A stretch of 64,000 nucleotides of DNA, taken from positions 124,001 through 188,000 of the forward strand of contig JAGTXK010000054.1 in NCBI GenBank assembly GCA_019096195.1, given 5' to 3'. The notes beneath the pieces were generated by a model. It was not told the DNA's origin. It did no database searches and saw only the letters and a program-made list of their open reading frames with translations. The position numbers and the translations under genes were made by a program. Position 1 is the first letter of the stretch; each line of letters opens with the position of its first letter. Origin of the DNA: Boletus sp. NGJ. Its lineage: Eukaryota > Basidiomycota > Agaricomycetes > Boletales > Boletaceae. Positions 1 through 36,900 of the stretch are shown here, in pieces.

Positions 1-677
1 TTGGTCTGGAGCTCTAGGATGAACTCTTTAAAGTCGTCCATCCAGAGCGGATGGAAAGTGGGATCTTCCATCTGGAGGAGGTCCAGTTCGAACCACTCTA
101 GAGCCATGCCCTTTAGGTAGGGACTGCGCAAAGGTGACTTTGGTGCAGTCCATCCTGAAAGTCTTCGGGCGGTCTTGGAAGTTAAGTTTCGCACTGGACC
201 AGAAAGACCCAGAGTTTTGCAGGGCTCAGTCCCGTCAAACTGGTCCGGTTCCCGGACCTTAGTGGCATGGAGTGTGGTTGGAGGGATGATGCATGGAGCA
301 AGCAAGGCCTTTGATGGCATCAGCAAGCAGTGCGCGAGAGTGTCTTGTGGGACGTGCTTGTTGTCGGAGTCTGAGGGAGCGTCGTTGTTGGGGAAGTCAG
401 GATCATCATCCGACGGGTCATCTCCAGGGAAGTCCGGGAAGTCGTCATTTGGGAAGAGGGCAGCCTGCACTCATTGACTCAAGTGTCGGCTTGTGAGTGG
501 GGAGGTGGTGGAGTCATTGTCGGTGGGTAACTCAACGATGCGCGCTCCTGGAGTAGGGGACTCCAGGAGTGGTCATAACTGAGAGGCAGAGGTGGGAGTT
601 CATCGAGGCGGAGAAACTTCAAAACTGGTCGACGAGTTCTGGACCTCGCCAACTGCTGCCAAATGTGCTCAACAGGT
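1..677 (-). mobile_element. Ty3/Gypsy retrotransposon, degenerate gag region (truncated by window edge)
   Basis: Reading the minus strand away from the LTR at 678-1260, broken frames give typical basidiomycete Gypsy Gag phrases: REPDQFDGTEPCK around 200-260, FQDRPKTFR around 150-180, and KGMALEWFELDLL followed by LWMDDFKEFILELQ in the last 120 bases. No single frame covers these. At least two one-base insertions interrupt it (one near 188-190, one near 130), so this copy cannot make an intact Gag. Pol would lie to the left, outside the window. Assignment to Ty3/Gypsy rests on family resemblance of these phrases; I am fairly sure of it. The copy is inferred to be an old, inactive insertion. 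Confidence 0.75.
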
Positions 678-1260
678 TGTAACGTGGGGATGCGGAGGGG
701 TTTGCGCCAATGGCGCAAGTCTGGGATCTAGTAGTACATGTAGCCATAATGTGAGAGACTCGTTGCAAGTGGGAGTTTGAATATACTGTTAAGAATGGAC
801 AACTCCGATGAAACTCCAAAGGACTGGAGTTACTTGAGGGTGTCAGGACTTGGCTTTACCTTATGTGGTGCGCCCTTGCTCAAGTCCGATGTCCCAGATT
901 TCGAAGACGTAGGAGGATCAGAGGTTTGGACTCGACGTAGTCGAACATCAAGTCGAGCAGAGGGTTGGAGTGAGTTGTCGAGACTTGGACAGGAGACAGG
1001 AGGAGTGTTCAGAGTTGATATTCAAACTGACTTTACAGGAGTAGTACAGAGGGTTTATATACAATCAGAACGAAGGTATTAGTAATGGAGTTTGTAAGGT
1101 GTAATGAGTAACGGGACGGAGATGGGACCTCACTGGAGCAGTGCTCCTAAGCGAGACAGACACTGGGTCAGAGACAACTATAAGGCGGGACTAGGATGGA
1201 TGAAGAAGCATAGGTTATGTATGAAAGGAGAAGTATGAATACTATAGTGAGGGTGTTACA
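678..1260 (-). repeat. 5' LTR of the Gypsy element
   Basis: On the minus strand the segment begins TGTAACACCCTCACTATAG and ends CCCCACGTTACA, so it has matching TGTAAC...GTTACA inverted ends and a length of 583 bp, both usual for fungal Gypsy LTRs. It lies directly upstream of the gag remnant. A TATA-like TATATAAA on the minus strand near 1053-1063 could be the element promoter. The base run AGTCC just outside (1261-1265) would be one side of a target-site duplication; the partner is not in the window. I saw no second LTR here, as expected for an element cut by the edge. Confidence 0.6.
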
Positions 1261-2100
1261 AGTCCAAGGGTATGAGGACGTACTCCAAGGGAGAACATGC
1301 CGGAGTTATGGACAGAGTGCCAGAGTTGGACTTGTCGAATTACATGGGATATGACAATGAGATAAACTAGCACTTGTTTTCATTATGTTAAATTTATTGT
1401 ACTGCAATGTTTTTTGAGAGCTGAAAAGCTGAGAAAGTTTAATAAAGGTGAGATAAGGGTTTTGCTAATTTGCTGATGTGCCTGTGGCCACAAGATAATG
1501 CCTGATAATTTGCATACTCTCCTGCTGTACAACAATGTTCTTGATTCTGACAAAAAATAATTATGACCCTCAGAGACATTATTCTATCCCAGTACATGAC
1601 TCTGATCTGGCAAAAATTGTGTTGTTATGTAGTGGGAGACTTGAGAAGGTTCCATGATGCATTTGGTGGTGGATAACTGTATGCAATTTATACACTGAAC
1701 TCAGGTTCATACTGTACCATAAGAACCCACATTATTATATGGAAACAATCAATCCGCACTCACAATAGGTGTAAATGCCCACATCAGTAAATTTACATGC
1801 ATCTTATTCTGTCTTATTCAGCTTATTGACTTGCACAACATTTCCAAATCTGACATAGAGACAAATTCTAACCCTCATTTTGTTGAAAAATAGATCAGCT
1901 TGGTTGTTGTTGATGTTTCTGATGTTCTGGAATGCATCATCATGGGAATGAATATATTTTGTAATTTAACAAACAGAATTAGCTAGAATAAGCCAGATTA
2001 AGATGCATGTAAATTTACTGATGCAATTTCATAAGTGATCAAAACACTTCGATCTCAAAAATCTACACCTCATGGTACCCCTGTTTGGTCTATTCTGACT
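1261..2100. other. AT-rich non-coding stretch with foldback element
   Basis: No open frame of interest is present on either strand. The stretch is clearly more AT-rich than the flanking genes. Its only structure is the foldback repeat at 1782-2023. Confidence 0.5.
1782..2023. mobile_element. MITE-like foldback element
   Basis: The left end reads CATCAGTAAATTTACATGCA and continues as an imperfect match to the reverse complement of the right end (about 1976-2023). Roughly 46 bases per arm pair, with about 40 matching by eye. The core is about 150 bp, AT-rich and without a frame. This is the size and form of a non-autonomous DNA transposon (MITE). No obvious target-site duplication was identified and the superfamily is unknown. 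Confidence 0.5.
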
Positions 2101-2325
2101 CAACAAGGAACCCTCTCTAATGGTTGTGGGAACCTCTCAGAAGTGATGCCAAGGGTGGGATTTGCTGTCTCGCCCCCTGTCGGGCTGAAGGCCCAATAGC
2201 GAGCCACCGGCTTGTTTTCCTGATGGCCCGAAATGATTCCAGAATTGTTGTACTTGTTGCTCTTGAGCGTCACACGGAGGTTTCTGTACTGGGAATGCAT
2301 TTGTAACACAGACTGCTCAGTAAAT

Positions 2326-5306
2326 TCAAGGATGTCGACTATTGTACAACATCTGAGCTGGTACGACGACAACTACAAGTACATAGGATTTACGAGGAGG
2401 AAGGCTACTCTTCGCATAAAGCACGTCCTGACCAAGGGTGAACTGCGGGACACCCGGGTAAGGCCAGATGTTGCCGGTTCCGCTGCTCGGGAATGTGGGA
2501 AGCGGGGACGGGTTGGGTTCATTGCCGATGTAAGGGTATTTCTTCGTCACGTGGAATGGCCATTTCTCGCTCCCCGGAGCAGTGTCTCGGGTCAGGTGCT
2601 TGATGGGACTACATCGAAGCAGCGTGATCAGTCGTGGGTCCGGGGTGCAGTCAGGAGAAAGAGAAACTTACGACGTGAGAGTTTCAGTGGCAGCGAGCCT
2701 GAACTTGACGCAGGGTGGCGGGATCTTCTTACCCCCGTGACACCATTTGACATACAAGGTGAGTTTGGCGGTGTAACCGGGGGGTGCCCCAGTGAAGTGG
2801 CAGCCCGCAACCTAACTCGGACCGTCAGCTATGTGTACTACAGGCCACGGCGTGGTCACATACCGCGGGGGATTCAGTGTCGATGGCACAGCCCTGGTCG
2901 ATGGGTTAGTATTGACTGCGAAGAGAGCGAACGAAACGACCTGACATCGAAGCACACCCCATTCGTGAAGATCTTATCGTTCTCACATGTCAAGGTCCCT
3001 GGAGAAGACACGAGTCAGCGTCGCTGACGAGAGGACACCACGGCAACAACAAACATGTGGACCCAGACGGAATGATTGCGTTGTCACACTCGACGATGAT
3101 GGTCCAGAAGGTGCAGGTAGAAGCGCATTCGGGGATGACGAGCTGAGTGCAGCAAGGCCACTGTGTGCACTGCGGTCCAGGGGTGCAGGGAATCCAATTG
3201 ATGTTCCTCCAGCACACGAGCGGGCAGGAGAAAATCCAGTTCTGGAAGTCGGCCACTGCAACGAGTTCAGGTGAGCACTAGACTGGTGCGAGCGAGCGAA
3301 AACACGAACAGGTTGCAAAGTCCTGCTGCTGTTCGTTTGGCCAGCACGAGTACATCAAGCAGCATTTGCGCTTCTGACGTACTTCTGCGACGAGGCAGTA
3401 GTGAGTGTTGGGGTCGGTAGGGGTCGTGAGGTCGAATGGCTTGTTGAACAGGTAGAACTGATTGCCATTTGCGACAGGGGGGAGGCTTTGCTGGTCGATC
3501 TGCGCGGTGCCACCGATGACCTGGGCCGAGATGCCGTTCTTCATGTACTGGGACGGGTGGAGGAGAGCGCTTCCCGGGACTTCGATAAGTCTGCACTGGA
3601 GATCAATGTCCGCGAGGGTGCTGTGTCCGCGCACGAAAATATAGTTGGTATCGCCTTCGATAAGCTGGACCGAATTGGCAGTCGTATAATCAACATCGGG
3701 GTTCTGGAGACCACCCCACAAGCCCTGTTTAGTCAGGTCCGTGCCGACGGGCTGAATGTCTGTCGTGTCGTCCCCGTTGGTAACGACGGGGTATGCAGGA
3801 ACAGAAGAAGAAACGTACCAGGAGAATATCCGCCCGTGCCAGTGAGAGGGAAGTTGTTTGTGTCGGTCACATGAGCTCGGAACCACCATCCAGTGGCTGC
3901 CGGGCTCGTGACGGGAATTGGCCCACAGTCTTGGCCGGAATTGGGGTCATCCTTTCCAGGACAATTCTTGGAGTGCTCCCTCAGCTGCGCCGCAGCGGGA
4001 CTAGCGAAGCGAAGATTACGGGTCGAATGAGGCTCGAAAATGATGTTCAATGCACCCAGTAACTGAGCAGTGTGGAGGCGAAGCGGATCGATGGCAGCCT
4101 CTGCGAGATCCGGACTCGGTCCCGAGCCGCGTCTGCCTCTGCTCTTAAGAACCTGGAGAGAGAGGCCAGAGTATGGATCAAAGAATGTGTTTTTGTCCTT
4201 GGAAGTAAACACGTGTAGCGTCAACATGCCGTCGTAAGACGGCTCGAGCTGGACCTGGAGTTCCTTCAAGTTAGACCACTTGGTGCGCGGTATAGCTATC
4301 TTTCCGAGATTGTCATGCAAGGACACCTCCAACCCATCAGGGACCGGCGTGCCTTTGTGCCACTATACAGATTCAAGCGAGTCAGGGTGATCGTGCGTGC
4401 GTGCGTACAAGAGAACGATGACGCTTACGTTGAGTCGGAAAGTGACTGACGTGGACGACTGACCAAACATGCGGAGTCGAGTGGTGGTTGAAACATGCTT
4501 CAAAGTAGGGTCTGCGACAACCACCTAGGGAATGGTTGGATCATGTTCCTTTCAGAGAAGAAAATGTGAAACTTTACATTATAGAAGGTGTGGTTTTTGT
4601 TCTCAGACAGGAAAGAGAGGAAGTCGTCCACATTGGATCGCTTGAAATTGAACGACGGAGCCGGCTCGTAATCTTGCAAGTTCTTGTTCTCGTCGCCGGG
4701 ATGATATTTGAAGACGTTGGCGACCAAGGAGTATGTGTTTCCCGTGGTGTGAGGTGGACGGAACTGCACAGGACCATCGGAAGCGTCTACGATCCAGATG
4801 AGTGGCACCCCCAAACAAACGTACGAAAGACACCTACATGGACCCTTGGTGTCTCCGCTCGTAATCACTACGGGGCTAGATGAGACAGGCTTCACGTCGG
4901 ACCACACTTGCGGCCATAAGATTAGCTCGCTTGGAACGGCCCTCAAGGTAGCGAGGTGGGGTCCGCCGGAGCCATGGCCGCGGATGTAGACATTGTTGTC
5001 ATCGCCGCCGACAATGGGCATACCCGTGAAACCACGCCAGGATGCAGGATGAACAAGGGTGCTTTGATCAGCATTCGCGCCGTAGAGCGGGATGATGTCA
5101 GGTGACTATATAGCGCATCAGTTTCGCCACGCATTCCAGTTGAAGGTAAACATGACGTACGAAGGACTGCGCTTTGGAGTACTTCCCCGGATTGTCCAAT
5201 GCATCGTCGTCTGGATCTAGAATGAGCTTTAGTGTGACAGCGTGGTCTAGTGAGACGGGGGACGCGAACAATTTCTCAAGGTGAGGGTGGTTAGATCGTT
5301 GGACAT
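2326..5306 (-). pseudogene. Palindrome gene, left copy: tandem-domain protein of unknown family, frameshifted in exon 1
   Basis: Start ATG at 5306 (MSNDLTTLTLRN), with a TATAAAG about 75 bases upstream (5381-5387). Splicing reconstructs a multi-exon protein whose domain is repeated: a first unit (around NNVYIRGHGSGG ... GNTYSLVANVF) and a second (around NYIFVRGHSTLA ... NTHYCLVAEV), separated by a linker with an EVSLHDNLGKIAIPRTKW stretch. A Cys-containing region and a Pro-rich C-terminal part (KKYPYIGNEPNPSPLPTFP) follow. I see no signal peptide or catalytic motif and do not recognise the family. In this copy one T is missing after codon 12, which shifts the frame early. At the 3' end one missing G removes the stop used in the right copy, extending the tail to 2326. 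Either a pseudogene or a sequencing slip in a T run. Confidence 0.6.
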
Positions 5307-5380
5307 TGTATGGGTTCGAGTTATCTGTGAGATCGCGAGATGGAGGTGAGATGCTGACGGAGAGAGCAGAACGCACCTAC

Positions 5381-5387
5381 CTTTATA
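5381..5387 (-). promoter_or_regulatory. TATA box of left palindrome gene
   Basis: TATAAAG on the minus strand, about 75 bases before the ATG. It is the mirror of the one at 7760-7766 and is unchanged between arms. Confidence 0.45.
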
Positions 5388-5619
5388 TCTTTTGGACACC
5401 CCTACATAACAGAACTGGTAACTGACATCCACACGGTATTGCCAGCTGACTGCCATTCCGACGGAAACGCGAACCCTTTACGCGATATCTATGTCAGATG
5501 ATTGGGAACAAGGGTGGGTTGGACAACGGGCGCGTCCAATGAAAAAGTCGATGGCTGCATCCTTCTGTTTCTGGGGCGCCTCTTCACTTATAAAATATAG
5601 ACATTGATCGGCGAAGTGT

Positions 5620-6045
5620 CTGAAGATCAGTGAGATAGGAGAAGAATTCGCAGTCCCATCAAACCCCGAAACCGGGTTGACGGTCCCAATTCTAAACAAT
5701 TCAGGACGTTTCTGATGTGACAACACTCACAGACACCGCATTGACGATTCAAATATTCATGGAGGCGCCGGTAGCCCTGCATGGGCAGGTCGAGCGCCAC
5801 TGCAAGCTACGGCTGACTCGATGGCAAATCATTCATCCGATTGTGACCATGATAATGAGAAGAGTGAAAATCCAGATGTGCTCCCTCCAATGGGGTTATG
5901 GCATGCATGGGAGCACTCGAAATGGCGCGCATTGTAGACATATGTGCGACAATGCGCATCTTGTCACTGACTGCAACAGCGAGTAGTCTACCGCGTTCCC
6001 TTGCGATGCAAACGAAATGAACGTGGTTGGGGTCGAACCGTTGAA
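5620..6045 (-). repeat. Upstream-region direct repeat, unit A
   Basis: The stretch containing AGATCAGTGAGATAGGAGAA and then GCATGCATGGGAG and CTTGCGATGC recurs in the same orientation at 6181-6590 with many small changes (roughly 80% by eye). Unit A overlaps the 5' flank of the left palindrome gene, so the repeat looks like a duplicated upstream region. Confidence 0.7.
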
Positions 6046-6180
6046 GGTAAGTGGCTGGCGCCACTACTAGTAAGCGCTAATCCTTGATCAATATTATGTA
6101 ATTGAGGGTGAGCAGGCAAATCGCCATCATGATCGCGGCGAGTGCCAGTGAGCCACACTGGTGACAGGGGTATTGGTGTT

Positions 6181-6590
6181 CTAAGATCAGTGAGATAGGA
6201 GAAGAATTCGCAGTTCCCATCAAACCCCGAAGCCGAGTTGGCGGTCCCCCAACTCTAAACAATTCAGGACGGATGTTTCCGATGACAGCACTCGCGGACA
6301 CCGCAATGACGATTCATGGAAGCACCGGTAGCCCTCATGGGAAGGTCAGAACCCTGAAAGTACGGCTGACTCGATGACGAATCATTTGATGTGACAATGA
6401 TAATGAGTGAAAATCCAGATGTGGCCCTCCGACGGGGGTTATGGCATGCATGGGAGTACTTGAAATGGTGCGCTTTGTAGACGTACGTGCGAGAACGCGT
6501 ATCTTGTGATTGCAACAGCGAGTAGTGCAGATGGGTCTATCGTGTTCCCTTGCGATGCCGACGAAATGAGCATGTTGGGATCGAACCGTC
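6181..6590 (-). repeat. Upstream-region direct repeat, unit B, inside the palindrome spacer
   Basis: Shares the same ordered blocks as unit A, including AGATCAGTGAGATAGGAGAA and ATGGCATGCATGGGAG, but is more diverged and has lost short segments. No gene body follows it, so it is likely the relic of an older third copy of the palindrome gene's 5' end. Confidence 0.65.
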
Positions 6591-7233
6591 GTATATTATG
6601 TAATTTGAGTACCACATGGGTCACTTGATAATAATGACAGTGAGACCAATCGAAACCCAAGAATAAGGTGAGGTACACTCGATCACCCACCTTATCACCG
6701 GATGGACAAAATTGGATGATTTGTACAGATAGAAATCCAAAGATTCTCGGCGCTATCGGTACTTCCATGGATCATGAATGCGGTGTCGGTGACTGCGTGG
6801 CAAGAAGGGCTGGATAATTCACTCGCGGGAAGGTCATTCCAAACCAGTGGGTCAAGTACAGAAAAGGCTAGCTTGTTCCCCTGTTTCGCATTTGTCGCAT
6901 ACTTGGTGACGAGGTTTGTGGAGTGGGTGAACGGCGAAACTAATTATTGCTGTCCTGCCCGTAATTGAGTCACTGTTACAACTAGAAAAAGTCAATTGAG
7001 TGAAAACACCAACGACGAATAATAATCATAAAAAGAGAAAAAAAAAAAGGCGAAGTCGACCAACACTCACCCGATAGCAAAAAGCAAGAATAAGGTGACC
7101 TGCTGACTGACAAAAATATCAGTTGTGGGTGCTACAGGTGCCTCCATGCGTTGTCGACGCTGTGTCGGAACTGCGCCATGAGAGAGCCAGACAACTCACA
7201 AGTCGCGGGAAGGTCATCCCAAACCAGCAATGA
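6591..7233. other. Palindrome spacer, non-coding
   Basis: No supported gene. Blocks CAAGAATAAGGTGA and CGCGGGAAGGTCAT...CCAAACCAG occur twice (about 6657-6860 and 7089-7225), so this part is also an old direct duplication. An A-rich run lies at about 7027-7049. Confidence 0.5.
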
Positions 7234-7759
7234 GACATGCATGCCATAACCGCATTGGAGGGCGCACAGCTGGATTTTCACGCTTCGACAGTATCATGGT
7301 CACAATCGGATGACTGCTTTGCCATCGAGTCAGCCGTAGCTTTGCAGTGGCGCTCGACCTGCCCATGCAGGGCTACCGGCGCCTCCATGAATATTTGAAT
7401 CGTCAATGCGGTGTCTGTGAGTGTTGTCACATCAGAAACGTCCTGAATTGTTTAGAATTGGGACCGTCAACCCGGTTTCGGGGTTTGATGGGACTGCGAA
7501 TTCTTCTCCTATCTCACTGATCTTCAGACACTTCGCCGATCAATGTCTATATTTTATAAGTGAAGAGGCGCCCCAGAAACAGAAGGATGCAGCCATCGAC
7601 TTTTTCATTGGACGCGCCCGTTGTCCAACCCACCCTTGTTCCCAATCATCTGACATAGATATCGCGTAAAGGGTTCGCGTTTCCGTCGGAATGGCAGTCA
7701 GCTGGCAATACCGTGTGGATGTCAGTTACCAGTTCTGTTATGTAGGGGTGTCCAAAAGA

Positions 7760-7766
7760 TATAAAG
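7760..7766 (+). promoter_or_regulatory. TATA box of right palindrome gene
   Basis: TATAAAG 75 bases upstream of the ATG at 7841, identical in the left arm. Confidence 0.45.
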
Positions 7767-7840
7767 GTAGGTGCGTTCTGCTCTCTCCGTCAGCATCTCA
7801 CCTCCATCTCGCGATCTCACAGATAACTCGAACCCATACA

Positions 7841-10743
7841 ATGTCCAACGATCTAACCACCCTCACCTTGAGAAATTGTTTCGCGTCCCCCGTCTCACTA
7901 GACCACGCTGTCACACTAAAGCTCATTCTAGATCCAGACGACGATGCATTGGACAATCCGGGGAAGTACTCCAAAGCGCAGTCCTTCGTACGTCATGTTT
8001 ACCTTCAACTGGAATGCGTGGCGAAACTGATGCGCTATATAGTCACCTGACATCATCCCGCTCTACGGCGCGAATGCTGATCAAAGCACCCTTGTTCATC
8101 CTGCATCCTGGCGTGGTTTCACGGGTATGCCCATTGTCGGCGGCGATGACAACAATGTCTACATCCGCGGCCATGGCTCCGGCGGACCCCACCTCGCTAC
8201 CTGAGGGCCGTTCCAAGCGAGCTAATCTTATGGCCGCAAGTGTGGTCCGACGTGAAGCCTGTCTCATCTAGCCCCGTAGTGATTACGAGCGGAGACACCA
8301 AGGGTCCATGTAGGTGTCTTTCGTACGTTTGTTTGGGGGTGCCACTCATCTGGATCGTAGACGCTTCCGATGGTCCTGTGCAGTTCCGTCCACCTCACAC
8401 CACGGGAAACACATACTCCTTGGTCGCCAACGTCTTCAAATATCATCCCGGCGACGAGAACAAGAACTTGCAAGATTACGAGCCGGCTCCGTCGTTCAAT
8501 TTCAAGCGATCCAATGTGGACGACTTCCTCTCTTTCCTGTCTGAGAACAAAAACCACACCTTCTATAATGTAAAGTTTCACATTTTCTTCTCTGAAAGGA
8601 ACATGATCCAACCATTCCCTAGGTGGTTGTCGCAGACCCTACTTTGAAGCATGTTTCAACCACCACTCGACTCCGCATGTTTGGTCAGTCGTCCACGTCA
8701 GTCACTTTCCGACTCAACGTAAGCGTCATCGTTCTCTTGTACGCACGCACGCACGATCACCCTGACTCGCTTGAATCTGTATAGTGGCACAAAGGCACGC
8801 CGGTCCCTGATGGGTTGGAGGTGTCCTTGCATGACAATCTCGGAAAGATAGCTATACCGCGCACCAAGTGGTCTAACTTGAAGGAACTCCAGGTCCAGCT
8901 CGAGCCGTCTTACGACGGCATGTTGACGCTACACGTGTTTACTTCCAAGGACAAAAACACATTCTTTGATCCATACTCTGGCCTCTCTCTCCAGGTTCTT
9001 AAGAGCAGAGGCAGACGCGGCTCGGGACCGAGTCCGGATCTCGCAGAGGCTGCCATCGATCCGCTTCGCCTCCACACTGCTCAGTTACTGGGTGCATTGA
9101 ACATCATTTTCGAGCCTCATTCGACCCGTAATCTTCGCTTCGCTAGTCCCGCTGCGGCGCAGCTGAGGGAGCACTCCAAGAATTGTCCTGGAAAGGATGA
9201 CCCCAATTCCGGCCAAGACTGTGGGCCAATTCCCGTCACGAGCCCGGCAGCCACTGGATGGTGGTTCCGAGCTCATGTGACCGACACAAACAACTTCCCT
9301 CTCACTGGCACGGGCGGATATTCTCCTGGTACGTTTCTTCTTCTGTTCCTGCATACCCCGTCGTTACCAACGGGGACGACACGACAGACATTCAGCCCGT
9401 CGGCACGGACCTGACTAAACAGGGCTTGTGGGGTGGTCTCCAGAACCCCGATGTTGATTATACGACTGCCAATTCGGTCCAGCTTATCGAAGGCGATACC
9501 AACTATATTTTCGTGCGCGGACACAGCACCCTCGCGGACATTGATCTCCAGTGCAGACTTATCGAAGTCCCGGGAAGCGCTCTCCTCCACCCGTCCCAGT
9601 ACATGAAGAACGGCATCTCGGCCCAGGTCATCGGTGGCACCGCGCAGATCGACCAGCAAAGCCTCCCCCCTGTCGCAAATGGCAATCAGTTCTACCTGTT
9701 CAACAAGCCATTCGACCTCACGACCCCTACCGACCCCAACACTCACTACTGCCTCGTCGCAGAAGTACGTCAGAAGCGCAAATGCTGCTTGATGTACTCG
9801 TGCTGGCCAAACGAACAGCAGCAGGACTTTGCAACCTGTTCGTGTTTTCGCTCGCTCGCACCAGTCTAGTGCTCACCTGAACTCGTTGCAGTGGCCGACT
9901 TCCAGAACTGGATTTTCTCCTGCCCGCTCGTGTGCTGGAGGAACATCAATTGGATTCCCTGCACCCCTGGACCGCAGTGCACACAGTGGCCTTGCTGCAC
10001 TCAGCTCGTCATCCCCGAATGCGCTTCTACCTGCACCTTCTGGACCATCATCGTCGAGTGTGACAACGCAATCATTCCGTCTGGGTCCACATGTTTGTTG
10101 TTGCCGTGGTGTCCTCTCGTCAGCGACGCTGACTCGTGTCTTCTCCAGGGACCTTGACATGTGAGAACGATAAGATCTTCACGAATGGGGTGTGCTTCGA
10201 TGTCAGGTCGTTTCGTTCGCTCTCTTCGCAGTCAATACTAACCCATCGACCAGGGCTGTGCCATCGACACTGAATCCCCCGCGGTATGTGACCACGCCGT
10301 GGCCTGTAGTACACATAGCTGACGGTCCGAGTTAGGTTGCGGGCTGCCACTTCACTGGGGCACCCCCCGGTTACACCGCCAAACTCACCTTGTATGTCAA
10401 ATGGTGTCACGGGGGTAAGAAGATCCCGCCACCCTGCGTCAAGTTCAGGCTCGCTGCCACTGAAACTCTCACGTCGTAAGTTTCTCTTTCTCCTGACTGC
10501 ACCCCGGACCCACGACTGATCACGCTGCTTCGATGTAGTCCCATCAAGCACCTGACCCGAGACACTGCTCCGGGGAGCGAGAAATGGCCATTCCACGTGA
10601 CGAAGAAATACCCTTACATCGGCAATGAACCCAACCCGTCCCCGCTTCCCACATTCCCGAGCAGCGGAACCGGCAACATCTGGCCTTACCCGGGTGTCCC
10701 GCAGTTCACCCTTGGTCAGGACGTGCTTTATGCGAAGGAGTAG
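7841..10743 (+). pseudogene. Palindrome gene, right copy: tandem-domain protein of unknown family, frameshifted in exon 2
   Basis: Same gene as 2326-5306. Exon 1 is open here (MSNDLTTLTLRNCFASPVSL onward). It is followed by an intron from GTACGT (about 7988) to ATAG (about 8042), which removes two in-frame stops and leads into SPDIIPLYGANADQS. Later introns are supported near 8312-8360, 8567-8636, 8719-8785, and 9329-9390 (the last joins GGYSP to DIQPVGTDL). In exon 2 one T is missing at GPHLAT (about 8203), giving an immediate stop that the left copy does not have. The end is ...LGQDVLYAKE and TAG at 10741-10743. The 9.75-10.3 kb part is poorly resolved. No function assigned. Confidence 0.6.
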
Positions 10744-10947
10744 CCTTCCTCCTCGTAAATCCTATGTACTTGTAGTTGTCGTCGTACCAGCTCAGATGTT
10801 GTACAATAGTCGACATCCTTGAATTTACTGAGCAGTCTGTTGTGTTACAAATGCATTCCCAGTACAGAAACCTCCGTGTGACGCTCAAGAGCAACAAGTA
10901 CAACAATTCTGTAACCATTTCTGCCACTGCTACTCTCGCGTAATCTC

Positions 10948-11851
10948 CTAAAATTTGAGTGAGCCCGGAACGACCTCGACCCAGTACCTGTACATGGTAC
11001 GATGGAATCACATAAATCAAAATCAACCCATCGAGCCAACGCTTACCCATCCGGATCCAAGATGAAGGCAATGTGTCTCATCTTACCATCGGTGAGGCGC
11101 TTCTTGAAAGGCACACCGAGCTGTTCAAAGCGTGCACACGCCACCTCGATGTTATCGACCGTGATGGCAATATGGCCAAAGCCCCTGCCGGGTTCCGCAT
11201 TGCCGCTCGCATACCCCTGGAAACTGGGATCGGACTCCGTCCCGTGGTTGTGCGTGAGCTCCAGAACGCCTGATCGCGACGTACGTATGTGAGCGTTCGT
11301 CGGTATGTGTTGTGTGTATACGTAGTAATGTCTTACCTTCGCGGTTAAATCTGGCCTTGTTCTTATCCTCGGTAGAAAGCTTGCTTATGCCATCGTGATC
11401 ATATCCAAGGAAGTACAGGGTAAAGTCACCCATGTTCTGTTCTGTGACGTGACATAGAGTTTTTCAACCACATTCGTCGTGTGAAGGACGTTTGTCAGAA
11501 TCGAACTCACCCGCAAGGAGGTCCATGCCAAGAGTCTAGAGGGTGATGTCACGTTTAAAAGGATCACTGAACTCGACCTGGGAGGCACTCACGTCTAGGT
11601 AAAACGGCAAAGACACTTTCGGGTCCTTGATACGAAGCATGGTGTGGTTGAACTACAGAACACCGATACCCCTGTGAACTCGCTGCGATCGTGGCGATTT
11701 CAAGCCCGCTCACCTTGAAGCTGGCGGTCTCAGCTGTGCGCGGCATCCTGGCTAGTATTGTGGTATGAAAATTAGAGCGTTGCGGGGAAAGCAGGGCACT
11801 TCTGCTCTTGAGGACACCTGAGAGGAGCCGCCTGAAGTTCACGTTACTCAT
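10948..11851 (-). CDS. GLO1: Lactoylglutathione lyase (glyoxalase I)
   Basis: Catalyses conversion of the methylglyoxal-glutathione hemithioacetal to S-lactoylglutathione, detoxifying methylglyoxal. Six exons splice to about 196 residues. Exon 2 gives [20 protein letters not shown], exon 4 [16 protein letters not shown], exon 5 [14 protein letters not shown] and [13 protein letters not shown], and the last exon [12 protein letters not shown]. All four metal-binding positions of the family are visible: H in FNHTML, E in VLELTHN, H in GFGHIAI, and E in YWVEV. The N-terminus is basic and Ser/Arg-rich for about 35 residues before MPRTAET, which looks like a mitochondrial presequence; the second Met would give a cytosolic form of usual fungal length. 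Exon ends match GT...AG. The 3' end lies next to the palindrome's right arm. Confidence 0.93.
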
Positions 11852-12098
11852 TCCCGGTCACCAGACAGACGGATGGGGTCTATTTATGGCCGGCCCGGAG
11901 TGCCGCAATCCGACTCCATTTCCGTCCGGATTTGCTGGCTTAGGATTGACTATCTTTGTCGAACGTTGCCAGCCAAAGTAGTTCAATTGGGCCAAGGTAA
12001 CGTTACAGAAGAACCAAAATTACGAAACCGGTGTGCTATCGAGGTCCATGCCGAGTATTATACAGTATGTATCTAAGTGTAGTTGGGAAGGAACGGAG

Positions 12099-13353
12099 TT
12101 ACTGCGAAATACGGGAGCGACGTGAAGGATGGTTGGAAACCAATTCGTGGCTGCCGCGAATGTTGATGAAGGAATACTGTTTTCGCAATTTTAGCCCTGT
12201 GCCGTCACCGTCGAGTAATATATAGCAAGGCATACCTCTATCAAGTCGGGACGCACGCCTCTCACAAGGTTTACATAGACGAGGTTTGGTTCAGAGAAGA
12301 ACGGTCTCAGACCCGCTTCTTCGAGCTTCTCCCACCATTTGAGGAACTTTGGGAAATCTTGCCATTCGCTGCCACTATAAACGTGCACTTCGAGTTGAAG
12401 CTGGCCAAAGGGTAATGGTTCGCCGTGGAAACTGTCGATGAAGACCTCAAACGAGTCGAATTCATTACCCTCGATGTCGATTTTGAGCACATCGATAAAG
12501 TCGTGGCCGTTCCGCTCCATCAAGGTACGCAAGGTGTACATCTTTGGATCGTCAATCGGGCTAAACGCATCTTTAGGACCGAGAGCATAGGGAAAGAAGT
12601 GGGAACGGTGCTTCAAATCTGAAACGAGTTCGATCTCTGGACCAAACTGATAGGGGTGAACTGCTTGGCCCGACAAGTTCAATCGGCATACGTACGGAGT
12701 TGACACTGAAATCATAGCCATAGGCCTCGCAGCCTGGTGCTGCTTTCATGATATCAGCTTCGAATGAGGACTCGCCATTTATACCTGACAGCAGAATTCA
12801 CTGTTTCTGACTATGCCAAGGAAACGAGGACCGCACCGAAGGAGTACATGACACATTTCTTCTTGGGGGTGATGCGTTCCAAGCCACACACCCATTTACC
12901 ACCATCCCCCATGACTCCGACGCGCTCGACGCGGTGGGGGCACTTGAAGGATGGGAGGAAGAAGTCCCCTTGTGAACAAATTAGCCCATCACATGAGTAA
13001 TACACATAGACACTTACAGAGTGTATAGTATTCGCCATGAGAGGGAAAGCTGAGAAAGGATGGTTGGCGTATGACGAAAGACATGGAGAAGTTAAGTACA
13101 GGACTTACGGGTCAATTTTGTCAGCTGTAGGGCCCCATTTCTTGATGAGGTCCTGCCGCTGGTCGAGCATTTTCTGGTACTGTTCCTCTTCAATCCTCAG
13201 TGACTCGGCGAGATAGCGACCTGCGGATCGGTGGAAGCCCACTTGGCCGAATAACAAGTCGTCCGGTTCCGAGTTTGCGAAAAGAAGAACTGAGATGAAT
13301 ATCAGGACCAGGAGGGCTATGGTGAATCTTGGGTGGCGGCTGTGAAGAGCCAT
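12099..13353 (-). CDS. Membrane-anchored methyltransferase-like protein (Methyltransf_22 type)
   Basis: Starts MALHSRHPRFTIALLVLIFI, one hydrophobic segment at about residues 10-27 like a type II signal anchor, then a coiled, charged stem (EEEQYQKMLDQRQDL). Spliced exons then read HGEYYTLWDFFLPSFKCP, GVMGDGGKWVCGLERI, VMYSFGINGESSFEADIM, YGYDFSVNS, VLKIDIEGNEFDSFE, and a final exon YSFINIRGSHELVS ending at TAA 12099-12101. These are the signature stretches of the fungal Methyltransf_22 (FkbM-related) family, of unknown substrate. One candidate intron (12661-12691) is only 31 nt; the join to HPYQFGPEIE depends on it. The rest of the family order is intact, so I read it as a working gene. Confidence 0.82.
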
Positions 13354-13880
13354 GTTGAAGGGAACGAACGGGGGAGCTGTTGAGAGCTGTTGTGGGATAG
13401 TTTTGAGAAAACGGTTGGTCTTAAATTTCTAGCATATGCAGCAGGGCGCCGGTGTGCCGGCTCTCGAGAGATTATTACAGCATGCCAAGAGCGGCAAGAC
13501 TAACAAAAATATGTTGCACTGATTTATGGACCCGCGAAGCACATTGCCACTACACTGGAAACATCCACCCCACCATCCATGACCCGCACAGCGAAAAGGT
13601 ACGCAGAGAACGAGTCCTCGAACATGTGCATGAAGAGCTAACCGTGGGGAATCCAACACGGTCCAACTATATAAGCTCCACTCTGATAGACGAGCCGAAT
13701 CAGAGGTGGCGTGTGTAGGAACGTTTCCAACACCCGCGCCTGGTCAGTCTTGTGGTCACGACACAGCTGGCACCCGCTTACGGCAAGACGCGGATCGCTG
13801 AATTTAATCTCCGCGCAAAAACGCGTTTACTGGACAGCTCGACGCCACGTGACCGCATATACTCTTGACAGTCGACATCG
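13354..13880. other. Divergent intergenic region (shared promoter space)
   Basis: Lies between two genes transcribed away from each other. No frame or recognised motif was found beyond a TATATAAG-like run near 13668-13675. Confidence 0.4.
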
Positions 13881-16020
13881 ATGTCCTCATTCGGATCGCT
13901 CTCGCCGCTGACCATCCCGTTCAGATTCAGGCGAAAGAGCTCATCGGCCTCCACGAGCGTTTCAATGGACCACCATATGTATAGTCCTGGTGACGCTGCA
14001 CCATCTTCGTCTCCTCTACTATCATCTTCGCCTTTGCTGACCCCTCTGCACCTCACGCGACGGTATGAATGCGCGGAATGGCAAGCCAGCGATTACTCGG
14101 ATGACTTAAATGGGGTTATATGTGATCCGCGAGACAACGTCGACGACGCTACTCACCCTTGGTCGTGTCGTACACGGCCAGAGCATCCACTTCCCTATAT
14201 ACAACGGCCCCCCCCTTCCTTGATGACAAAAATCGCGGCACACACACTCCGAAACGATGCTTCGCCACCATATAGCCCACCACCCTTCTCTTCCGCTCCC
14301 CGAACACCATATTTCTACCCACAAGGGGACAGTGCAATTGCAGATGAATGCGAGGAATACGATCTCGAAAGCATGGATATCCATATACGCGAAACGTACT
14401 TCGCGACGTCTGCCGAACGTGGACGATGGTTGAGCAGTCCCATCGCGTCACGCGTCCGATCTCAAGTTATCCCACCTATGCGTGGACACTCATCACCCGT
14501 CAAGACACTAGCAGACGCGTCCTCTCTGAGACACAACAGAAGTCGTTCCCAAATTTCGCCCTCATCGTCAGAAGACCGCGATGAGGACTTGCGTTGTTCA
14601 TCCTCACTTCCGCCCTCCTCACCCCTAATATCGCCGATGTCCAGTTTTTCCGTTCTAGGTGATGAGTGCGAGGATGTTGATCCTCGATCAAATGTGCGAA
14701 TTATTCCACCTTCAACCTCATACTTTCGTGCTGAACCTGACTCTTCGCGTATAGTCAGACGATTGCCATCCCTTTACCGGGACTCCAGAATTGCGAAATC
14801 CCTCAACTACTTGCACATCACCTGTTGAACCCACGCACGCGCCAACTCCGCATGAAGCGCCCGTCATCGTATCGGCACTCCATCCCACGGATTTCCCTTG
14901 CCATTCGCCTGGTTCCGCCATTTCTCATCATATGAATCCCTGCTCCAGTCATTCGCCTAAGCCTATTGACGTCCGCGCACATGGACCTGGCACCACCAGT
15001 TTCGAGCTAGACGACATTCTCTCACCCCTATCTCAGTTTGAGTTGGACCTCGTGGAGGCGGAACCGTCGAAACTGCCCTTATCAGATACGGTGAATAGAC
15101 CCTACCCTGGGCAGCAGACAGCTAGTCTAGGCGTGACCGTAGAAGCCGCCCGCAGTCAAGATGGATTCTCGTGCATCCAATCTCTGTCGATGGACTCGAT
15201 ACACAATGCTCTCGATTTCTCGCTGGACACTGTCGGTGGGTCAAGTTCCAACAAGAGAGCGAAGAAAAGGGGGAAATCTGCCACTGGTAATCCAGGAGCA
15301 AGGGGGGCGAAGAAACGCGTTGTCATCCGGTCGGGGAGCCCACCCTTTGACACGAAGAAAAGGAGAGGGGCAAGGAGTCACTCGCCCAAACATTCGGAGC
15401 CTTCAAGCAAAAAATGCAAACAGTCGCATTGCAAAAATGATTGCGGTAGGATACCCAAAGTCGAGCGACTTTCGCGATCACCCTCGCTGCCCGCTGTTGA
15501 GGGTTGTGACTCAGAATCTGCATGTCCACGTCATAGGAAGACACCAAAACCTACAGATCATCCCCAGCTACAGCAACCGACAACACCAGCTCCGATGGAT
15601 GCAGTCGACATGGAGTTCCATGTTTCCTTGACAGGGATGCTGGTTGAAGCGCTTGCCACCTCACGAGCAACCTCCTTGGATTCAGCAGCGCTGTGTCTCG
15701 TTCTCACGCAAGCACATCCTTTCCTCGCGGCCGAGCGTGCAAAGGAGGAGCTCTTGATAGACATTACCGTCGTGCTGGAAGCTGGACGGGCTCGATGTGG
15801 AATGTTCGAGAAGGTGGACAGTAGTGGCGAAAGGTCGCGACACAAGGCGCTCGAGAGTCGGTGGTTTTACGTTCCAGAACGGGACGAAGATCCTGAGCGG
15901 GCGTCGTTGATAAGCGCCATTATGCCGCGGCAGAAGAGAAACGAGACGAAGAAGTACAAGCAATACTATTACCAACCGCTGGACAAGATATCGAGATGGG
16001 ATCCGGAAGATGCACCATAG
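13881..16020 (+). CDS. Hypothetical nuclear low-complexity protein
   Basis: Two exons: 13881-14748 and 14789-16020, joined by a 40-nt intron GTATAG...CCAG. The phases fit and join into an open frame of about 699 residues. The N-terminal two thirds is rich in Ser, Pro and acidic residues without a recognised domain. A strongly basic stretch (KRAKKRGKS, AKKRVVIRS, TKKRRGARSHSPKH) near residue 440-500 looks like nuclear localisation signals. The C-terminal 110 residues are better ordered (FHVSLTGMLVEALATS ... AAERAKEELLIDITVVLEAG ... RWFYVPERDEDPERASLI) and end KYKQYYYQPLDKISRWDP. That tail is the likely conserved part. I do not recognise the family; a chromatin or transcription role is only a guess. 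Confidence 0.75.
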
Positions 16021-33841: not shown

Positions 33842-35304
33842 TTAGCAATCAAACCCAGCCGCTTGCCTAACAGAATCGAGGAGAATGTCATCATAGTCAC
33901 CGCCAGCTTCCCACATTGCAAACCCTCTAAGACCCGTCTCCTGAATGTAGCTCCCCTTGGCAGCAAACGATTCAGCATTATCAAATGAGACCATGACCTG
34001 GGTCGTCTCGTTGTAAACGTACGGCTGAAATCAGATCGTCAGATCGAAAAGCACCATATCATCCAAATATCGAGGCCACTCAACAGTTTGACTGCAAGCG
34101 TCGTAACGGTAGTAGATACCTGGCGCTGCGTCCCCTTCCGTGGTCAGGAACCCGCCATCAATGAGACCCCACAAGCCGAAGGTACCACCGGGTCCTGCAT
34201 AAACTCCACAAGCATCAACGCTACTGGTGTTATCCCATGCATCACCGAGCGGTTGATTCGAAGCATTGAACATCGGGTATGCAGCGAGTTCAGTCTTGGA
34301 GCCATTGACGAATGCATTGGAAGGCGAGACGCTAAAGGAGTGACCATAAGCAGCAACGCCGAGTACGATCTGGTCGAATGGCATTCCGGCGGTAGTCCAT
34401 GCATTGACAGCCGAAACCGCAGAACCAGCCTGGTCGGTAGTAGATGCACATGTGTCATTTAAAGGAGCGTTAGGTCCGACACCCGGTGACCACGAGCCCC
34501 AAACATCGTAGTTCATGACGGTAATGTAGTCGAGGACCTCAGCGAAGTCGGATACATTCTTGGAGGGAATACCAGACGCGTCACGGAATGGGGTGACCCC
34601 AGTCGCGGCAGAGAGGGTCAAGTTGGCCCCGACAGGATTCGTACGGAGCTCTTGGAGGAAGGAAAGGAAGTTCTGCGTATCATTGGCACTAAGTGTGTTG
34701 CAACCAATGCCTAGATTATTCGGATATTCCCAACTGGCAGGAGCGCTTTCAGCGCTCGTCGATTAAGAGAAACCGCCAGGACCTACTCAAAGTTGATGCC
34801 ATCTAGGCCATATTGTTCTGCGAAAGTTGCAACAGTCTGCACGAATGCAGTACGGTTCTCCGGGGTTGCTACGTTGGATGAGAACCAGCGGCCACCACCC
34901 CAACCTCCAATTGCAATATGCGCAGCAACACCCTTCATGGGTACAAGTAAGTAATCGTTTCAGCACTAAGCATATAAACTCACGTTTGTATGTGCTTCAC
35001 AAACAAAGTCGGGGAGGAGTGATGGGTCTGATCCGTTCAAGGAAAGACTACTGATGTTCGGGGTCGTGATACTATTCAGAAATAGTCAGCTCTTCCTGAA
35101 AGTCAGGAATGACAAGGTCAAGCAGGCTTACGCAAAAGAGTAGATCAGTGTGTTGTACTTGTCCCAACTGACGTCTGAGAGTGGGAACCCTACCGTGGCA
35201 TGCCACCCTGCGTACCAAGCAGCCGCGACAGGTGAAGTCGGTGCAAGGGAAGTTACCCGCTGGAGGACAGACAGTACTGTCAATGAAAGTAGTGCAAAAG
35301 ACAT
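33842..35304 (-). CDS. GH18 chitinase, secreted
   Basis: Hydrolyses chitin beta-1,4 bonds. Start MSFALLSLTVLSVLQRVTSL looks like a signal peptide; an upstream Met at 35325 would add seven residues. Order: AAAWYAGWHATVGFPLSDVS, NTLIYSFA, HIAIGGWGGGRWFSS, then LDGINFDWEYPNN split by an intron, YITVMNYDVWGSWSPGVGP, FDQIVLGVAAYGHSF, GGTFGLWGLIDGGF, and SYIQETGLRGFAMWEAGGDY. The catalytic motif DGINFDWE keeps the acid Glu and the preceding Asp; the first Asp of DxD is Asn, which the family tolerates. Ends QAAGFDC and TAA at 33842-33844. No carbohydrate-binding module is seen. About four introns. Confidence 0.9.
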
Positions 35305-35819
35305 TGCTGGTCGCTTGGATTCCAAGAGCTAGGTCGAGTACAGCGTGCACCTGCCGTTAGCAAGATCCCCTACTTATACTCAGCTTTTTTCATCGAAAAT
35401 TTCGGTGTAGTTTCGGCTCTTATTCGCACCTTGGAAGCCACATGACGTGTTATGCCGTAGCCATGGAGTTGGCCATGAGTCACAAGCATATCTTACATAG
35501 TTAAAATAGGTTTGCCGAGTGAAAACCACGCTGCCCTTCGAAGCCTCCGAGTCGGGTGATGGAAGTATCGTGAGTCCGCATAGCAACCCGATCTCAGAGT
35601 GGTTTTAATTTGGCGTCGAAGTTTCAAGTGGAAGGTCCTACGAATAGGGAGCGAGCCCGAACGAATGTCTCAGTTGTATAATGTAATACGAGGTGCTAGG
35701 ATGAGATTACCTGTTCTGTTTGTAAGTGTGCCTGTAGCAGGTATGTTTCAGTACGTCTGTGTGGTATCAAAACGCAGCCGCCCACCTGATGGGGTCAAGG
35801 ACAAAATATCGGTAGTTGC
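35305..35819. other. Chitinase promoter and intergenic region
   Basis: No gene. A TATACTC-like run on the minus strand lies near 35374. The left part is presumably the promoter of the intact chitinase. Confidence 0.3.
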
Positions 35820-36900
35820 CTCCAGCTTCTCAAATTGCAAACCCTCCTAGACTAGTCTCCTTGATGTAGTCGTCCTTGGCAGCAAATGACTGAGTAAAAA
35901 AACATGATTCACAGAAGTTTCATTTTAAATACATGGCTGAAACAGACGCATCAGAAAGGAAGCGCAACAGTATCCAAGTCTCAGGGTCACTCAACAGCAA
36001 TAGATAGTACTCGGCGCTAGGTCCCCTTCCGTGGCCAAGAACCCGCGGTATCAACGAGACCCCGTAAGTTGAAAGTACCGCCGTATCCTTCGTAAACACT
36101 GCACACATCAACACTACCAGTTTCATCCCATGCATCGCCGACCGGTTGATTTGAGGCGCTGGTACGCCGGAGATGCAGTAAGTTCGGTCTTGAAGCCGTT
36201 CACGAAAGCACCAGATGACGAGACACTGAGAGCGTAAGAAGGGACACCAAGTTAGGATCTGGTTGATTCCACCGGCAATGTGGTCGACAGGGGCATCGTA
36301 CGTGTCATTCAATAGGTGTTCACGGTCCCAAGAGTCGTAATTCACAATGGTGAAATAATCGAAAATCTCAGCCAAATCGAATACATTGATGGGAAGATTT
36401 CCAGAGGCGCCGAGGAAAGGGTTGGCGCACAGTGACTGCTGTAAGCGTTAACTGGGAACCAACAGGATCGCACCGTCGGTGGTTCTCCCAACGTCCGGTC
36501 GCGGTGTGTAGTGGCACCGTTTTTGCTGTGAGTGAGGGAACGTTTCAACAACGAGATGTAAACGCACGTGCAGTGATTGCCACGAGCAAGGAAGTGTTTC
36601 GGCATCGAGATACAAACTCACGTGTGCATTACGAATTCAGGACGGAATGGTGCGTCTGACGGGTTCAAAGAAAGCATAAGAACCGCTCTGACGACCTGGG
36701 GTTGTGATCCCGTCCGGAAATAGTCAGCTTGCTAACCAGGATCAAAGTGGTCAATCTGGCTTACGCAAAAGCGTAGATCAGGGTGTCATACTTCTTCTCC
36801 CAACCGACCGGTGAGAACAGTGGGAAGTTGAAGTCAACCTTCCCGCTGCCTGCCGGAGGATCACAGCACTGCCAGGGAAAGACACCGCTGATTGCTTAGA
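35820..36900 (-). pseudogene. GH18 chitinase pseudogene 1
   Basis: Matches the intact chitinase from 3' to 5' end. Near 35820-35890 a cognate of the SYIQETGLRGFAMWEAG segment appears; GSVDVCSVYEGYGGTFNLRG near 36050-36150 matches DACGVYAGPGGTFGLWG; FDYFTIVNYDSWDREHLLND near 36310-36370 matches the YITVMNYDVWGSWSP part; and 36760-36830 matches the N-terminal NTLIYSFA segment. Frames are broken by stops and deletions, and the catalytic DxxDxDxE segment is not found. Clearly dead, moderately old. Confidence 0.8.

Follow-up and report, generated by a model that had tools for sequence, protein, structure and literature searches.

When two copies of a gene lie in an inverted repeat and are nearly indistinguishable, were they duplicated only recently, or do they keep overwriting each other? 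Mutual overwriting is known, if seldom reported, as a means of keeping gene duplicates identical; homogenised inverted pairs of genes are well documented for mammalian sex chromosomes and for a few other settings. The question is raised here by a palindrome in the window, by which we mean the whole stretch of 64,000 nucleotides analysed (C23:124001-188000, C23 being the contig that carries it, in an assembly of 32.8 Mb and 141 contigs). The arms of such palindromes cannot be dated from their identity. At this locus the arms alone cannot separate a recent duplication from conversion; a third copy of the arm would decide between them, and it favours conversion.

Comparing the window with itself by blastn, we obtained an inverted match of 2230-5909 with 10921-7236, extending over 3,687 columns at 99.51% identity (E 0; 10 mismatches, 6 gap openings). 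The 8.7-kb palindrome with near-identical 3.7-kb arms that the preliminary description reported is therefore real in the assembly: it spans 2230-10921 (about 8.7 kb, each arm about 3.68 kb) and has one of the features that define a gene-converting palindrome, two inverted arms around a spacer (99.5% over 3,687 columns, 1,326-base spacer; Table 1). The mirror sum of 13147 given there holds over most of the arm length and moves by a few bases at indels. The drop in similarity toward the spacer was also borne out, since 8 of the 10 arm-to-arm substitutions fall within the 82 bases adjoining it, at 7252-7317. The remaining two, 10912 and 10915, lie at the ragged outer end; with two mismatches in the final ten aligned columns, homology effectively stops at 2240/10911, and within it the outer edge carries no substitution between arm 1 and arm 2. 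There are 1-base indels at 7287, 7341, 7879, 8202 and 10737 and a 3-base indel at 10838. Over the 3,594 bases of 7318-10911 the arms thus differ by no substitution and five indels (four of 1 base, one of 3 bases).

Table 1. Features of the palindrome and its right flank (window coordinates)
Feature	Position	Strand	Description
Arm 1	2230-5909	minus (gene outward)	from self-blastn and the listed differences
Spacer	5910-7235	none	1,326 bases, between the arms
Arm 2	7236-10921	plus (gene outward)	from self-blastn and the listed differences
Gene copy 1 (predicted)	3383-5456	minus	seven exons, one open frame of 578 codons; 3' exons lie beyond the model
Exons of copy 1 (predicted)	5456-5381, 5324-5161, 5105-4838, 4786-4578, 4524-4429, 4362-3819, 3759-3383	minus	GT-AG, open frame
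Gene copy 2 (predicted)	7691-9764	plus	structure as copy 1; 1-base indels at 7879 and 8202 shift the frame as assembled
Inner unit, type A, complete	5616-6041	none	spacer side of arm 1; 80.5% direct repeat of 6176-6589
Inner unit, type U	6176-6589	none	in the spacer; first 203 bases 97% identical to the third copy's inner unit
Inner unit, type A, cut off at 7236	7236-7531	none	spacer like that of the third copy starts at the cut
Substitution cluster	7252-7317	plus	eight substitutions, from arm-to-arm alignment; polarity by eye
Flank marker X	11692-12038	plus	sole other genome copy found (82%) adjoins the third copy's spacer, same strand

Each arm carries one copy of a predicted gene, which reads outward from the spacer of about 1.3 kb in both arms, as first described. 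The splice sites were picked by eye and give GT-AG introns of 51-66 bases. An earlier gene start, at an ATG in the present second exon, was dropped in favour of a model with one exon more upstream, whose frame stays open both in arm 1 and in the third copy. The earlier claim that long translations contain no substitution stands, but it needs qualification, because the 1-base indels at 7879 and 8202 lie inside predicted coding exons and the two arm copies are consequently not equivalent as assembled. The third copy resembles arm 1 in that its first two exons are open, and its other modelled exons show no frame-shifting indel relative to arm 1; they differ from it by a 3-base gap, two extra 75-base units and substitutions in or beside that repeat. 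A 471-residue piece of the spliced protein had no Pfam or NCBIfam match at E 1, and a search with a spliced piece of the protein returned no PDB chain at E 1. In one scan of a single exon against bacterial and archaeal sequences, 33 stretches matched a pattern and none was confirmed. Comparison of the protein halves by BLASTP gave a weak repeat (25% over 57 columns, E 0.004). The gene thus appears to have three copies in this assembly and to belong to no recognised family.

With one arm as DNA query, the whole assembly yielded a single further copy besides the two arms. It lies some 35 kb left of the palindrome, at C23:91168-94859, and other contigs gave no match; this rarity holds at the sensitivity used, as the search passes over very common words and scores the best candidates only. 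One gene exon used as a protein query matched exactly three places in the assembly. The third copy adjoins a second spacer, the two together spanning C23:91168-96321, and the preliminary description missed both because they lie outside the window. This spacer matches that of the window in inverted orientation: C23:95586-96321 corresponds to 130847-130107 (window 6107-6847) at 94.3%, and C23:94910-95298 to 131235-130846 (window 6846-7235) at 96.9%. The two matching stretches of the left spacer are separated by 287 bases that nothing in the window closely matches. At the same search sensitivity, the spacer and its units were found on C23 only. Self-comparison of 318 of the 322.7 kb of C23 revealed no other inverted pair of at least 300 bases and more than 96% identity outside the three copies. 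The third copy differs from both arms by substitutions deep in the repeat, at 8619, 9358 and 10518, and in a 75-base in-frame tandem repeat (9001-9107, plus strand) present as one unit per arm and as three units in the third copy; position 10737 is the site of an indel among the three copies.

Divergence between arm 2 and the third copy is uneven. The gene core has 3 substitutions in 2,951 positions (0.10%), whereas the edges of the gene block diverge by 2-5%: 7 of 147 at the inner edge (p 5e-8 against the core) and 3 of 132 at the outer edge (p 0.0014). The spacers of the two blocks differ at 29 of 1,131 positions (2.6%; p 1e-13 against the core). Ten of the 13 gene-block substitutions lie in the two edges, an excess that none of 100,000 permutations reached. 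These counts omit 9001-9107, where the tandem repeat holds many substitutions, 7318-7531, where a type A unit faces type U (16 substitutions), and the indel position 10737, and the limits of edge and core were chosen after the profile had been inspected. At sites expected to be neutral, the modelled exons show no change at 378 synonymous sites and the introns 2 changes in 340 bases; together this makes 2 changes in about 718 neutral core sites against 29 in 1,131 spacer sites (p 5.7e-5). The introns alone differ only weakly from the spacer (2/340 against 29/1,131, p 0.029). Between the blocks, then, the core is more alike than neighbouring sequence of the same origin, neutral sites included, within those post hoc limits and with that weaker result for introns. 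Diverged edges around an alike interior are seen against the third copy; between the arms, the inner edge holds 8 of 10 substitutions and the outer edge none within the homology.

Simple duplications of all three copies would give roughly even divergence, and the unevenness observed therefore points to non-allelic gene conversion. Because near-identity is confined to the gene core and extends to its synonymous and intron sites, conversion is favoured among all three copies and not just from arm to arm. Of the two explanations offered in the preliminary description, recent duplication or conversion, the latter is the better option. Selection on the protein is not enough to explain the identity of the core, given the synonymous and intron counts; however, since the intron comparison is weak and two of the three core substitutions are intronic, exon constraint may contribute to the pattern. 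At the rate seen between core and third copy, finding no substitution in 3,594 bases between the arms has a probability of 0.026. Divergence between the blocks reaches 18% in marker X and about 20% between units of type A and type U; as the spacer differs by only 2.6%, at least two layers of events are needed.

Marker X also bears on the orientation of the spacer. In the window it sits beyond arm 2, whereas at the third copy it lies at the spacer end that corresponds to the arm-1-facing end in the window. The side of the spacer on which X stands thus differs between the two blocks, which suggests that the spacer was inverted relative to X, either by itself or along with one arm. This contrast is seen between two blocks of one genome and for a single marker. 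At the left junction the passage from the spacer side into X falls on a shared GCTCACC, inside a direct but imperfect homology of about 28 bases; both right-hand partners have it, in the same direction when the spacer is reversed. If sequence was deleted between homologies as short as these, one arm would be lost together with the approximately 770 bases that separate arm 2 from X, and the left block looks like the palindrome minus one arm. The reverse path, in which the palindrome was built from a single-gene block, requires an insertion with matching ends.

The inner units suggest how the last exchange between the arms ended. The third copy has an inner unit of type U, with 97% similarity to the second unit in that block, yet this unit stands beside the same gene flank as the type A units of the arms. 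It can be aligned with the arms only from about 7310-7320 outward, whereas type A sequence in arm 2 begins at 7236, and arm 2 therefore seems to have received some 75-80 bases past the homology. Nearly all eight substitutions of the cluster fall in these extra bases of arm 2. All eight are transversions, whereas transversions make up 9 of the 29 spacer differences (p 6e-4), and six are T to G or A to C in the direction from arm 1 to arm 2, read on the outward strand. Polarity was read by eye from an alignment: six of the eight are taken as changes on arm 2, since arm 1 has the bases of the U units there, and at 7263 and 7282 the direction of change is ambiguous. The cluster may reflect error-prone synthesis where a copied tract ended, or poor base calls at a weak join.

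Judging from these sequence comparisons, we consider the following history probable. The palindrome would be one of two copies of an inverted-repeat block carrying an intron-containing gene, a block duplicated long ago. Non-allelic homologous recombination would since have copied the gene core among all three copies, the latest and most complete exchange being that between the two arms. Some exchanges may have been resolved as crossovers between the arms, turning the spacer round, and the left block would later have been reduced to a single arm when the sequence between two short direct homologies was deleted. For the latest arm-to-arm exchange, arm 1 probably served as template; copying would have continued some 75-80 bases beyond the end of the homology, into the part of arm 2 that faces the spacer and holds the substitution cluster. 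All comparisons were made within one genome; the third, partly decayed block serves as an internal outgroup within that single genome and lets conversion, inversion and arm loss be distinguished.

An unlikely alternative is a single very recent inverted duplication: a template switch, through fold-back or break-induced replication, would have copied an arm the other way round, and no conversion would have followed. The absence of substitutions in 3,594 bases suits a very young copy as well as it suits conversion, arm 2 stops abruptly at 7236 without clear homology, and error-prone synthesis at the switch might leave a cluster of transversions in the 82 bases at the junction. Such a duplication nevertheless leaves unexplained why the core of the third copy differs by 0.10% when the edges differ by 2-5% and the spacer by 2.6%. 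Moreover, the spacer of the third block meets its gene copy just as the spacer of the window meets arm 2, and a gene copy therefore probably stood at the arm 2 side earlier.

A bolder form of the conversion history, which we regard as speculative and rather doubtful, treats the palindrome as a recombination engine whose arms overwrite each other and the distant third copy and flip the spacer, maintained by selection for identical copies of an orphan gene or for cheap repair. The transversion-only cluster at 7252-7317 would then be a by-product, a readable scar of error-prone synthesis past the homology.

We find it improbable that the palindrome is an assembly artefact, whether a chimeric join, two haplotypes placed end to end, or the equalising of different arms by short-read polishing. 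Four of the five 1-base indels change the length of runs of two or three equal bases, as is typical of consensus error. Low-quality read ends at a join can produce transversion clusters, and the present cluster, mostly T to G or A to C, could have arisen in that way; polishing with ambiguous reads could also homogenise the arm interiors and spare the edges. Against this, the 318 kb of C23 compared contain no N, and the 1.3-kb spacer recurs, in diverged form, at the third copy alone, which a missed-adapter chimera would not give. The third-copy substitutions at 8619, 9358 and 10518 persist deep in the repeat, so that homogenisation by polishing was at least incomplete. Haplotype merging was set aside as unsupported: the one 4-kb flank searched occurs a single time in the assembly, and nothing points to a second haplotype. 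We consider it hardly credible that a foldback or terminal-inverted-repeat transposon carries the gene. The inverted arms do enclose a central stretch, but instead of dispersed copies, searches with the arm, a single gene exon, the spacer units and X yielded matches on C23 only at the sensitivity used. No target-site duplication was seen by eye at the outer junctions, and the parts searched gave no transposase match, the protein part among them having no Pfam, NCBIfam or PDB relative.

Comparable inverted repeats are known elsewhere. On chromosome XIV of Saccharomyces, the flip/flop inverted repeats of about 4 kb that carry genes are nearly identical and are homogenised by gene conversion, and the region between them inverts as a by-product of occasional crossovers (PMC9731477). 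A pressure for homogenisation of the yeast Centroid genes is inferred in that account, which does not identify its nature (PMC9731477). Both loci are fungal inverted repeats of the 4-kb class that carry a gene and combine near-identity with conversion, which is putative in our case. Unlike the Boletus arms, with one recognised gene each around a 1.3-kb spacer and a third copy taking part, the yeast repeats lie 24 kb apart and carry two genes each; inversion in yeast was shown across strains and species, whereas here it is deduced from one genome. In C. elegans, divergent inverted gene pairs such as F44E5.4/F44E5.5 tend to duplicate as an entity (PMC1803023). They share with our locus a long near-perfect inverted repeat, two outward-facing gene copies and a short spacer, but there the structure is common to three species and the spacer of that example measures 126 bases, compared with one genome and 1,326 bases here. 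We regard the yeast repeats and the C. elegans pairs as close precedents, which would place the locus in a known kind. It would be a second fungal-type case of a homogenised inverted repeat, the closest fungal one, in yeast, having no known cause of homogenisation in the account cited.

Two further systems are more distant. In primate X-chromosome palindromes, arm identity above 99% is attributed to gene conversion and the spacers are structurally unstable (PMC8981503); their median arm is 37 kb and they lie on a sex chromosome, in contrast to arms of 3.7 kb and no mark of sex or mating seen here. The sex-chromosome comparison made in the preliminary description accordingly fits as to mechanism, but the 20 of 36 listed ORFs scanned on the right side gave no sign of a sex or mating chromosome. 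Gene palindromes of Folsomia candida consist of inverted gene blocks, for which gene conversion and concerted evolution are discussed (PMC5490193); the synonymous rate in its Dscam2 palindrome is 0.2, as opposed to no substitution over 3,594 bases between the Boletus arms.

As for the surroundings, we detected no tRNA in the window with a bacterial-code scan, no Rfam family at gathering score in 1-16000 and no tandem array in 1-14000. Six of the ORFs scanned to the right of the palindrome scored above the Pfam curated cut-off, with matches to GH18, MIOS WD40, G-alpha and NOG1 and two with a GTPase domain. Genes such as MIOS, NOG1 and G-alpha, like the introns of 51-66 bases, mark the DNA as eukaryotic, and intron density and genome size would suit a basidiomycete. 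Several repeats of 0.4-0.6 kb, 79-98% alike and in both orientations, occur at window 501-1356 and C23:110485-119204, that is, immediately left of arm 1 and between the two blocks. Toward the left contig end, C23:16464-63863 (loci L018-L023) holds a crowded family of repeats of about 1-2 kb, in both orientations and 74-92% alike. An exon with a match to FkbM-type methyltransferases (window 12191-12721) adjoins marker X and has one weaker relative on another contig, C41. Finally, window 33894-36793 contains a diverged direct duplication (75-87%) in a region with a glycosyl hydrolase family 18 match.
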